NCBI GenBank assembly: GCA_024281055.1
Contig: JAMXLF010000008.1
Span: 1-64,000, forward strand
Origin: Geobacteraceae bacterium
GTDB taxonomy: Bacteria; Desulfobacterota; Desulfuromonadia; Geobacterales; Geobacteraceae
Length of the DNA stretch: 64,000 nt
Reading direction: 5' to 3'
In this document: positions 9,455 through 56,894 of the stretch, piece by piece
Layout: each line of letters starts with the position of its first letter
How positions within the stretch are numbered: position 1 is the stretch's first letter
Program-made: the position numbers and the translations under genes
The notes under the pieces: generated by a model
Database searches by the model: none
What the model was told of the DNA's origin: nothing
The model's input: the letters and a program-made list of their open reading frames with translations, nothing else

Positions 9455-9558
9455 GGTTGCAACCATACCACAGGCCGGTACGGGACGCAAATGCTTGCCA
9501 GCGGCGCGATGGCGGCTATACTTGAACAAAATGCCCAGCGGCAGCAAGGAGCGTGGCC

Positions 9559-10914
9559 ATGGCCAGAGAGAAAATCATCATCGTGGGCGGCGATGCCGCC
9601 GGGATGAGTGCGGCGTCACAAGCGAGGCGTCGTCGTCCCGATCTTGAGATCGTCGTGTTCGAGCGGACGCCGTACACATCGTACTCCAACTGAGGGATCC
9701 CCTTCTATGTCGGCCGGGTTGTCGACAGTGAACGGAAACTGGTGATCCGGAGACCGGAGACCTTCCGGGAGAAATTCAACATCGACGTCCGTACCGGTCA
9801 CGAGGTCGTGGAACTCGACCTGGCGGGGCAACGGGTGCTGGCGCGGCGCCTCGCGGACGGCGAGGAACGATGGGAGCCCTTTGACCGGCTTCTCATTGCC
9901 ACCGGTGCCGTGCCGTTCTGTCCCGACCTGCCCGGCGCATCTGCTCGGGGTATCTTTGGCGTGAACAGCCTGCAGCGGGGGATCGAGCTCCGCAGGTTCA
10001 TCGAGGAGGAGAAGCCGCAGCGGGGAGTAATCGTGGGTGGTGGGTACATCGGCCTGGAGATGGCCGAGGCCCTGGTGCGGCAGGGGCTCCAGGTGACCCT
10101 CGTGGACCGCGCCCCCCAGGTTATGGGGACCCTCGATCCCGACATGGGAGCGCTCGTTGCCGAGGCACTCCGGGGGATCGGGGTGACCATCTATCATGGG
10201 GAGTCCCTTGCAGGGTTCGAGACGTCCGGAGGGCGGGTGACCGGGGTGGTGACGGAGACGCGGACCCTGCCGGCGGAGGTCGTCGTCCTCGGTATGGGGG
10301 TCCGCCCCGACAGCCGGTTGGCACGAGCGGCCGGCATTCCCCTCGGCGACGGAGACGCGATCAGGGTGAGCAGCCGCATGGAGACGGGTGTGGCGGGGGT
10401 GTGGGCGGCCGGCGATTGTGCCGAGTCGTTCCATCTTGTGAGCCGGCGGCCTTTCTATATAGCTCTCGGCACAGTGGCCAACAAGCACGGCCGGGTGGCG
10501 GGGATCACCATGGCAGGCGGCGATGCGGAGTTCCGCGGGGTAGTTGGGACCGCCATCACGAAAGTGTGTGACCTGGAGATAGCCAGGAGCGGCCTCCAGG
10601 AAAAGGAACTCAGTCGGCTCGGCCTCGACTGGGTGGCGAGCACAATCGAGAGCTTCACCCGGGCCCACTACTATCCCGGCGCCGGCCCGCTTGCCGTCAA
10701 GCTTCTCGCGGAGAAAGGGAGCGGTCGCCTCCTCGGCGGGCAGATCGTCGGGACGGAGGGGGCAGGGAAAAGGATCGATATCGTCGCCGTTGCCCTCCAC
10801 GCCGGCATGACCGTCGAACAGGTGGCGGAACTCGACCTGGCCTATGCCCCTCCCTTCTCGCCAGTGTGGGACCCGGTGGCGGTTGCGGCCCGCGAAACGG
10901 CAAAGCTCGTGTAA
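9559..10914 (+). CDS. selenocysteine-containing FAD/NAD(P) disulfide reductase (CoA-disulfide / persulfide reductase-like)
   Basis: 451 residues if the in-frame TGA at 9691-9693 is read as selenocysteine 45. ATG 9559 has AAGGAG 7 nt upstream, and the same frame continues past the TGA to 10914. Domains: FAD-binding VGGDAAGMSAASQARR (about 8-23), redox site YSN-U-GIPFYVG, NAD-binding VIVGGGYIGLEMAEAL (about 157-172), second FAD motif VWAAGDCAES (about 281-290), then the dimerisation domain. In CoA-disulfide reductases, NADH oxidases and NADH persulfide reductases the residue at the UGA position is the single catalytic Cys (SxxxCG). A bacterial SECIS-type hairpin follows at 9709-9726. Ordinary calling would start this gene after the UGA (near 9742) and lose the flavin site and redox centre. 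Substrate is not determinable here. A Cys-to-stop sequencing error is the main alternative. Confidence 0.85.
9691..9693 (+). other. in-frame UGA, predicted selenocysteine codon (Sec45)
   Basis: TGA lies between codons for YSN and GIPFY, exactly where homologues carry the catalytic Cys. The frame is open from ATG 9559 on one side and to 10914 on the other. Confidence 0.82.
9709..9726 (+). promoter_or_regulatory. bacterial SECIS element candidate
   Basis: GUCGGC (9709-9714) pairs with GUCGAC (9721-9726): six pairs including one G-U, closing a 6-nt loop CGGGUU. The stem begins 15 nt and the loop 21 nt after the UGA, and the loop has G at its second position. These values fit the bacterial SECIS model of a short stem and a G-containing apical loop some 16-37 nt past the UGA. 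Confidence 0.75.
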
Positions 10915-54956: not shown

Positions 54957-54971
54957 CATAAAAATTTTATA

Positions 54972-55239
54972 AAGGCTGAGAAGAGGAGTAGTAGTCTTCA
55001 TCCTTTTTCCAGAGAGCCGGTGGCTGGTGCAAACCGGTAAAAGGAAAGACGAACTCGCCTCGGAGCCTCTCCCTTGATTGCTTCATGAAAGGTAGGGGGA
55101 GACGCAATGCCCACGTGACGGGCCAAAGAAGATCCTCTATCGATTGCATTTGCGCATGAAGGCGAGACGGTAAAGGATGAACGAGGGTGGTACCGCGGAG
55201 CTTAGCCTTCGCCCCTTGATGGGGCGAAGGCTTTTTTAT
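54972..55239 (+). promoter_or_regulatory. T-box riboswitch (Leu) controlling leuA
   Basis: Stem I features are seen: AGAGAGCC, then GGTGGCTGGTGCAAACCGG, and a candidate specifier CTC (Leu) at 55054-55056 in GAACTCGC. The T-box core AGGGTGGTACCGCGG is at 55184-55198, followed by the terminator AGCCTTCGCCCC-TTGA-TGGGGCGAAGGCT at 55204-55231 with T tract. Uncharged tRNA-Leu would bind and permit read-through into leuA. This accounts for most of the ~490 nt gap between pssA and leuA; nothing else is seen in the rest. Confidence 0.9.
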
Positions 55240-55340
55240 TATCCGGCTGTGGCGCATCGTTAGTCATATGGGACAATTGTTGGGTGCAGCATTGCCTTGA
55301 ATTCGCGCGTTTCGATAAGTTTACTACAAAGGAGGCGAGC

Positions 55341-56894
55341 ATGGCCAAAAAGAAGACCGAACTCACAACCGTCAAGATTTTCGACACCACCCTCAGGGAC
55401 GGCGAACAGTCGCCTGGTGCCAGTATGAACATCGAGGAAAAACTCAGGGTGGCCAAACAGTTGCAGAGACTTAACGTGGATGTGATCGAGGCGGGATTCC
55501 CCATCGCTTCCGAGGGGGACTTCGAAGCAGTGAAGAGAGTTGCCCAGACCATCAAGGGGCCTGAAATCGCCGGGCTTTGTCGAGCCAGCACTAAGGATAT
55601 AGATCGGGGATGGGAGGCTCTTCAGTACGCAGGAGAGAAGGGACGGATCCATACCTTCATCGCAACTTCGGACATCCATATGAAGTACAAGCTCAAGATG
55701 AGCCCGAAGGAGGTTCTGGCCGCAGCGGTCAAGGCGGTGAAGCGGGCTAAGTCCTACACTCCGAATGTGGAGTTTTCCTGCGAAGATGCGGTACGTACGG
55801 ATCTCAAGTTCATGGCCGAGGTGGTGGGCGCAGTCATCGATGCTGGTGCGACCACGGTCAATATCCCTGACACGGTCGGTTATACCATTCCGTTCGAGTA
55901 TTTCAACATCATCAAGTACCTCAAGGAAAACGTCGCCAATATCGACCACGCAGTCATTTCCGTCCACTGCCACAACGACCTCGGACTCTCTGTCGCTAAC
56001 TCCATTGCGGCGGTGCAGGCTGGAGCCGGCCAAGTGGAATGCACCATCAACGGCATCGGCGAACGGGCAGGCAACTGCTCCCTTGAGGAGTTCGTCATGA
56101 CCCTCAAAACGCGGAGCGACATACTTCCCTTCAGGACTAATGTGGTCACCGAACAGCTGACCCCCGCGAGCCGGCTTGTCACAACGGTGACCGGAATTGT
56201 CGTCCAGCCCAATAAGGCTATCGTCGGGACCAATGCCTTCGCCCACGAGGCGGGAATCCACCAGCACGGGGTGCTCATGGAGAAGTCTACCTATGAGATC
56301 ATGACGCCCGAGTCGGTGGGGTTGAAGGCCAACGTTCTCGTGCTCGGGAAACACTCCGGCCGCCACGCCTTCAAGAAACGGCTGGATGAACTGGGGTATG
56401 AACTCGATGACGAGATGCTCAATCGGGCCTTCGAGCGTTTCAAGGCGCTGGCTGATCTGAAAAAGGAGGTCTTCGACGAGGACCTGGATGCCATCGTGGC
56501 GGACGAAGAGGTTATGCGGGCCACTGAAAAGTACAAACTATCCCACATTACTGTCACATGTGGTTCCTTTGCCGTGGCCACAGCCACCGTGCAAATGGAG
56601 ATTGACGGCAACCCGGTGCGAACCGCTGAACTTGGTGACGGGCCGGTCGATGCTACGTTGAAGGCGATCAAGAAATTGACGAAAACAAGGGCCAAGCTTC
56701 AGCAGTACAACGTCGGTTCCATCACCGGCGGCACTGACGCCCAGGGAGAGGTTACCGTGCGGCTTGCAGAAGGCGAGAAAACGGTAATCGGCAAGGGTTC
56801 TTCGACTGATATCATCGAGGCCTCGGCAAAGGCATACATCCATGCTCTGAACCGGCTGAACTTCAAGAAAGAGAAGCTCACGGAGCATCTCTGA
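55341..56894 (+). CDS. leuA: 2-isopropylmalate synthase
   Basis: 517 aa from ATG 55341 (AAAGGAGG 7 nt upstream). Condenses acetyl-CoA with 2-ketoisovalerate, the committed step of leucine synthesis. DTTLRDGEQSPGASM starts the TIM barrel, SVHCHNDLGLSVANSIAAV has the metal His, GNCSLEE follows, and the C-terminal LeuA regulatory domain (about 390-510) carries leucine feedback. Preceded by a T-box. Citramalate synthase is a sister family, but length, motifs and T-box specificity favour LeuA. Confidence 0.94.
   Translation: MAKKKTELTTVKIFDTTLRDGEQSPGASMNIEEKLRVAKQLQRLNVDVIEAGFPIASEGDFEAVKRVAQTIKGPEIAGLCRASTKDIDRGWEALQYAGEKGRIHTFIATSDIHMKYKLKMSPKEVLAAAVKAVKRAKSYTPNVEFSCEDAVRTDLKFMAEVVGAVIDAGATTVNIPDTVGYTIPFEYFNIIKYLKENVANIDHAVISVHCHNDLGLSVANSIAAVQAGAGQVECTINGIGERAGNCSLEEFVMTLKTRSDILPFRTNVVTEQLTPASRLVTTVTGIVVQPNKAIVGTNAFAHEAGIHQHGVLMEKSTYEIMTPESVGLKANVLVLGKHSGRHAFKKRLDELGYELDDEMLNRAFERFKALADLKKEVFDEDLDAIVADEEVMRATEKYKLSHITVTCGSFAVATATVQMEIDGNPVRTAELGDGPVDATLKAIKKLTKTRAKLQQYNVGSITGGTDAQGEVTVRLAEGEKTVIGKGSSTDIIEASAKAYIHALNRLNFKKEKLTEHL

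Follow-up and report, generated by a model that had tools for sequence, protein, structure and literature searches.

Does the in-frame TGA at positions 9691-9693 of a Geobacteraceae contig (GenBank JAMXLF010000008.1) end a protein or encode selenocysteine (Sec), and, if the latter, what would the resulting enzyme do? The window analysed here is the whole stretch of 64,000 nucleotides that contains this codon. The original prediction described a reading frame broken only at this TGA, and this was found to be exact in the sequence: a single forward-strand frame of 451 codons plus a stop runs from ATG 9559 to TAA 10912-10914, and TGA 9691-9693 is the sole in-frame stop between them. An ordinary ORF caller returns only 9742-10914 from a GTG, a product of 390 residues lacking both the FAD motif and the redox centre, which read-through restores. 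Profile scans of the read-through protein, run with Cys replacing Sec, matched Pfam Pyr_redox_2 and a dimerisation domain, and the full TIGR03385 (CoA-disulfide reductase) profile (1-439) was matched at 427.3 bits, below its equivalog cut-off of 578.8. No Pfam match to a rhodanese domain was obtained in the protein, which stops at residue 451. The N-terminal IIIVGGDAAGM is presumably the FAD dinucleotide-binding motif. The coordinates of the features are collected in Table 1.

Table 1. Positions in the window of the gene, its signals and the residues discussed in the text.
Feature	Position	Strand	Remark
Shine-Dalgarno-like AAGGAG	9546..9551	+	7 nt before ATG 9559; by eye, without tool score
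Selenoprotein gene, CoA-disulfide/persulfide-reductase-like FAD/NAD(P)H enzyme	9559..10914	+	451 residues, predicted Sec45
N-terminal FAD dinucleotide-binding motif (name assumed), residues 6-16	9574..9606	+	Pyr_redox_2 match (Pfam) starts at residue 5
UGA codon, predicted selenocysteine 45	9691..9693	+	aligned to the family's catalytic Cys
Bacterial SECIS-type stem-loop, UGUCGGC / CGGGUU loop / GUCGACA	9708..9727	+	6-7 bp
Codon CGG for Arg53	9715..9717	+	loop bases 1-3
Tyr371	10669..10671	+	aligned to 3cgb tyrosine
Tyr429	10843..10845	+	aligned to 3cgb tyrosine

The window protein had five matches in its own genome, the next best being 31% identical over residues 6-329, so it is the only close member found there. 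The 30 longest frames of the window that can be joined across one TGA were inspected by eye and no read-through candidate besides that at 9691 was found; the remaining joined frames resemble ordinary gene ends or antisense frames. In a plasmid collection, 17 records matched, each with a DNA identity in the 60-80% band, and these were uninformative. Elsewhere in the window, a T-box leader (54969-55219, 116.8 bits) lies just 5' of an ORF at 55284-56894, which by eye resembles 2-isopropylmalate synthase.

The TGA had been proposed to sit at the catalytic Cys of the family, and the corresponding column was indeed found to be Cys in five solved homologues and in the Cys-containing relatives, of which Trichlorobacter thiogenes L052 is an example. 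A tblastn search (E <= 1e-30) gave 176 loci, a set that counts the window's own gene and includes some genes twice or more; 125 of them carry Cys in this column, 47 carry a stop (TGA wherever the codon was checked), one carries Pro, and three do not cover it. Cys or a stop is thus present in 172 of the 173 loci covering the column, the lone Pro belonging to a distant match from the window's own genome, and this pattern is far beyond chance. A gathered set of 89 members (71 plus 18) comprises 38 with TGA, including the window, and 51 with Cys; it omits repeats, rows that are fused to a rhodanese domain or more distantly related, L032, which is partial because its contig stops before the redox codon, and a distant Sec locus, L129. 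Two observations on individual relatives may be recorded here. In the Cys relative L173 (G075:C81), the frame is interrupted by TAA immediately ahead of the redox site, where the near-identical gene of G073 is intact, and the members from G433, G457 and G520 have open frames of 564-581 residues around a domain of about 450, which suggests that they are extended upstream or that translation starts late.

What would direct recoding of this UGA? As originally described, a 6-bp stem with a CGGGUU loop begins 15 nt past the UGA, with its core formed by GTCGGC (9709-9714) and GTCGAC (9721-9726) around CGGGTT (9715-9720), and an optional seventh pair between T9708 and A9727. The element lies directly 3' of the UGA and carries G in its apical loop, a feature named for SECIS elements in a figure legend of an earlier survey (PMC1794560). 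Its proposed identity as a SECIS is borne out by its conservation chiefly where the codon is UGA: all six core pairs can be formed in 37 of 38 Sec rows versus 6 of 51 Cys rows, the latter being four rows nested within Sec clades and the near-identical pair L171/L173. In the single Sec exception, L062 (6127-6168), the element adopts an alternative fold that contains a bulged U and has GGUCU as its loop; this fold, unlike that of the other 37, resembles what we take to be the form of the E. coli fdhF SECIS.

In the alignment of the 38 Sec rows (35 distinct), 98.0% of cells were paired, compared with at most 77% in slid registers and 62.4% in a Cys control of 41 of the 51 rows. Compensatory changes in the Sec set were observed at two pairs (C-G/U-A and G-C/A-U), amounting to 21 cells versus 8.5 in shuffles, and the covariation score was 0.226 versus 0.129; no value as high was reached in 500 shuffles in either case. 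Two of the five covariation measures were not above shuffles (pairs changed on both sides, with 399/500 shuffles as high; further pair types, with 500/500). Because the Cys control likewise exceeded shuffles on some measures, it is the contrast between Sec and Cys rows that counts, and relatedness contributes to the signal. Synonymous codon identity, scored in 9-codon windows, reached its maximum at codons 51-59, which correspond to the stem-loop, both in 20 near Sec rows (0.89 versus a mean of 0.54) and in 16 Sec rows made up of 15 distant ones and the window (0.76 versus 0.40), ranking 1/443 each time, with the window gene present in both sets. The stem-loop windows of 30 of the 47 non-nested Cys rows gave 0.46-0.49 (mean 0.42; ranks 40-90/438). 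A covariance model, R1, was made from coding sequence and therefore also scores protein homology, so it was not used as independent proof. It scored 62.3 bits on the window, which belongs to the model by construction (next match 10.3), and 6.3-56.8 bits, not all at the redox codon, in a search of 31 sources (30 Cys loci and L129) with E up to 10; no match was obtained to L129 among hits up to that E value.

The genome was also found to hold all four of the decoding genes to which the original prediction had pointed, selA, selB, selC (tRNA-Sec) and selD, each matched above its curated cut-off in an assembly of 4.44 Mb in 103 contigs (99.6% complete, 3.4% contamination). Two tRNA-Sec genes exceed the gathering score (C38:11775-11868 and C70:84441-84534) and two SelB genes, 74% identical, exceed the cut-off (C38:9762-11651 and C89:817-2706), together with one SelA gene, on contig C42, and one SelD gene above cut-off (C98:45253-46173, L217). 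The SelD gene carries an in-frame TGA, and its product is probably itself a selenoprotein. The doubling of SelB and tRNA-Sec, in an assembly with this level of contamination, reflects either genuine duplication or a mixed bin.

What kind of enzyme would be produced? An AlphaFold2 model built from 56 rows had a mean pLDDT of 95.6, and its closest solved fold was 6ruz, which is 44% identical and superposes with Z 51.0 and an rmsd of 1.6 across 441 residues. The remaining CoA disulfide/persulfide reductases showed 34-39% identity, and the CoA disulfide reductase (CoADR) of S. aureus 28-29% at a Z of about 45. The Pfam domains, the identity to 6ruz and the predicted fold agree with the flavoenzyme class proposed at the outset, a CoA-disulfide/persulfide reductase-like protein. 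NADH oxidases and peroxidases, at Z 45.6-48.3 and 23-28% identity, share this fold and rank among the CoA enzymes, so the fold alone leaves the reaction undecided; nor can the substrate be read from the family name, since the TIGR03385 score lies below the cut-off. Tyr371 and Tyr429 are Tyr in 88 of the 89 rows, the remaining row (the partial L176) being uncovered there, and we take them to be the first and second active-site tyrosines of CoA disulfide reductases. PDB titles include the S. aureus CoADR mutants Y361F, Y419F and C43S, whose positions are presumably equivalent to Tyr371, Tyr429 and residue 45 of the window protein. The catalytic Cys/Sec column, the two tyrosines and a predicted CoADR catalytic-domain fold were all found. 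NADH would be preferred, by the rule that relies on an acidic residue, here the one in the VTLVD that follows GGGYIGLE.

Two readings would deny the gene a functional selenocysteine. One is that the UGA is a true stop, with a short product followed by restart at GTG 9742, as the output of the ordinary ORF caller has it. That 390-residue product would lack the FAD motif and the redox residue, although both are conserved upstream in 11 full-length rows, and the stem-loop would be left unexplained, which makes a restart highly improbable. Even less credible is a pseudogene or sequencing error, in which TGC or TGT of a Cys enzyme has undergone a nonsense change to TGA. TGA is indeed one base from either Cys codon, and the assembly is fragmented into its 103 contigs; however, UGA occupies the same codon in 38 of the 89 members, a group that spans many genera and several families, and 38 assemblies would need the identical change. 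The synonymous constraint on the stem-loop and the presence of the decoding machinery also speak against it. We therefore regard 9559-10914 as almost certainly a working selenoprotein gene.

The reaction leaves more room for disagreement. The same selenoprotein might instead carry out NADH oxidase or peroxidase chemistry, acting on O2 or peroxide through a selenenic acid in oxygen defence. The family was originally listed as 'NADH oxidase', and the water-forming NADH oxidases and NADH peroxidase score above S. aureus CoADR by fold. In addition, Archaeoglobus fulgidus Npsr was reported to show NADH oxidase activity in air and no CoA disulfide reduction (PMC7969121). Against this, the best sequence and fold matches are CoA disulfide/persulfide reductases, mostly at 34-44% identity compared with 23-28% for the oxidases and peroxidases, and both tyrosines are retained. 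The N-terminus reads GGDAAG and not GSSHxG, which we take to be the motif of the Npx/Nox type. Oxidase or peroxidase chemistry is accordingly unlikely, and the reading that we consider probable is that of a Sec45 enzyme reducing CoA-S species via Sec-Se-S-CoA.

In the reductase so proposed, SelB bound to the stem-loop after UGA 9691 would bring Sec-tRNA to the ribosome, and residue 45 of a putatively homodimeric FAD enzyme would become selenocysteine. NADH would reduce FAD, and FAD would reduce a Sec45-CoA selenylsulfide, Sec-Se-S-CoA. The freed selenolate could then attack the next S-S bond, that of CoA disulfide, CoA persulfide or polysulfide, to give CoASH or sulfide. The cycle would be the same as that of the Cys enzymes, with Sec-Se-S-CoA as its characteristic species. 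When the 610 ORFs lying next to the gene at 62 loci were compared all-versus-all, no family was common to more than nine loci, and the most widespread one, at nine loci, sits at scattered distances; thus, no operon partner emerges. Because no gene partner is conserved, a role in sulfane-sulfur or thiol-disulfide housekeeping is likely.

How are the Sec and Cys forms distributed? Desulfobacterota genomes account for 35 of the 38 Sec members, the other three coming from the named contigs L051, L056 and L062. In the class Desulfuromonadia, 64 of 277 genomes matched at E <= 1e-120 and a TGA row was present in 21 of these, and a draw of 395 Desulfobacterota genomes gave 21 matches at E <= 1e-190, 17 with TGA and four without. 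SelB was tried as a discriminator between Sec and Cys genomes and rejected, being above cut-off in 31/34 of the former and in 30/33 of the latter, one of which (G165) is classed as Cys only because no stop appeared in its row; the six genomes in which SelB is not above cut-off are 53-93% complete. Since SelB is equally frequent in both, the Cys forms are not explained by loss of the machinery.

Two trees were constructed with the redox column masked, one of 71 rows and one of 81 (8 of the 89 dropped as long, partial or near-repeat). They require seven and eight changes of Sec/Cys label, respectively, at least five of which are forced by well-supported branches. Four Cys members are nested within Sec clades, all able to form the six core pairs: starred branches join L188 and L142 to Sec rows, and L145 and L147 fall inside a starred, mostly Sec group in which their closest kin are weakly supported. 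The stem energies of L188, L142, L145 and L147 are -6.4, -4.1, -3.4 and -2.7 kcal/mol, so that the last three, but not L188, have less stable stems than any of the 37 Sec rows that pair fully, whose weakest stem is at -5.0 kcal/mol. The trees were rooted by midpoint only, some rows are long-branched and the window row lacks a firm position in the 81-row tree, so the direction of the deep Sec/Cys changes is something that we infer.

Residue 53 was found to be the column that best separates Sec from Cys rows by frequency difference when all columns were compared: 34 of the 38 Sec rows carry Arg there, and 40 of 47 Cys rows (four distant ones omitted) carry Gly. Among the 38 Sec rows, its Arg codons are CGG in 19, AGG in 12 and CGT in three, and codon 53 of the four nested Cys rows is CGG in three and CAG in one. 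On the simplest reading of these sequences, Arg53 would serve the RNA as part of the SECIS loop and drift to Gly after Sec loss; alternatively, the Sec rows may share Arg53 by common descent. On balance we lean towards a history in which Sec is ancestral for this enzyme in Desulfobacterota, with several reversions to Cys in genomes that still decode Sec and an Arg53 dictated by the SECIS. To the same degree, and jointly with that history, we favour a graded series from a full-strength SECIS behind Cys (L188), through weakened ones (L142, L145 and L147), to one long lost in a 30-row Cys clade. If true, this reading departs from the 2006 view, in which replacement of Sec by Cys is a rare event in bacteria and occurs mostly in FdhA and SelD.

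The distant relative L129 (6001-7338 of L129; JAUNVW010000011.1, a Tissierellia MAG) is 26% identical to the window protein and likewise carries TGA in place of a codon for the catalytic Cys. Its N-terminal GSSHAG is NADH peroxidase/oxidase-like, a type that we assign by assumption, and a possible stem, AUACC-UGGAA-GGUAU, can be seen by eye after the TGA. A tRNA-Sec, scoring 65.5 bits, is present in the genome of L129. A search of 150 genomes of its order matched 19 of them at E <= 1e-70, with TGA in that of L129 only. L129 possibly represents an independent origin of Sec in the peroxidase/oxidase branch, seen in a single MAG.

How does the window protein compare with known systems? Geobacter metallireducens, which we take to belong to the same order as the window organism, provides the nearest precedent. 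Its 'NADH oxidase' appears in the 2006 selenoproteome tables, where it is a single case given as lost in sister organisms (PMC1794560). An 'NADH oxidase' selenoprotein, PRK09564, was listed from the GOS data (PMC2398784), reviews name an 'FAD-dependent oxidoreductase (CoA-disulfide reductase)', WP_011365774.1 (PMC9312934, PMC13188914), and a 2026 review gives TIGR03385 with the motif UGxP (PMC13188914). The novelty implied by the original prediction therefore does not hold: the family has been in print as a selenoprotein since 2006 (PMC1794560), and the window gene is a further member of it. The G. metallireducens protein, assumed to be identical to WP_011365774.1, resembles the window protein in its Sec at the redox position, its TIGR03385 name and its UG-x-P motif; the likeness is drawn by family name and motif, and in those sources its Sec is a prediction. 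Among the papers listed by literature searches, none was an experimental study of this Sec enzyme.

Among enzymes of solved structure, 6ruz, an NADH-dependent CoA disulfide reductase, is alike in its full-length fold and catalytic column but has Cys in place of Sec. The enzymes 4fx9 (Pyrococcus horikoshii), 3cgb (Bacillus anthracis) and 1yqz (S. aureus CoADR), at 28-39% identity, likewise have Cys and not Sec; they share the catalytic Cys column, both aligned tyrosines (seen for 3cgb) and the absence of a rhodanese domain. The Npsr/CoADR-RHD/CoAPR enzymes (3nt6, 6pfz, 3ict and 8a56) have the same catalytic fold at 34-39% identity but carry a C-terminal rhodanese domain, whereas the window protein ends at 451. 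NADH peroxidase and oxidase (1npx and 5er0) have the same fold at 23-28% identity, with a redox Cys whose position, like their differing N-terminal motif, we take as given. The breadth of the Sec form, the nested Cys members still able to pair and the link between Arg53 and the SECIS loop are added here. The family constitutes a collection of natural Sec/Cys pairs among related bacteria, and the benefit of Sec in a CoA-persulfide/disulfide reductase thereby becomes testable.
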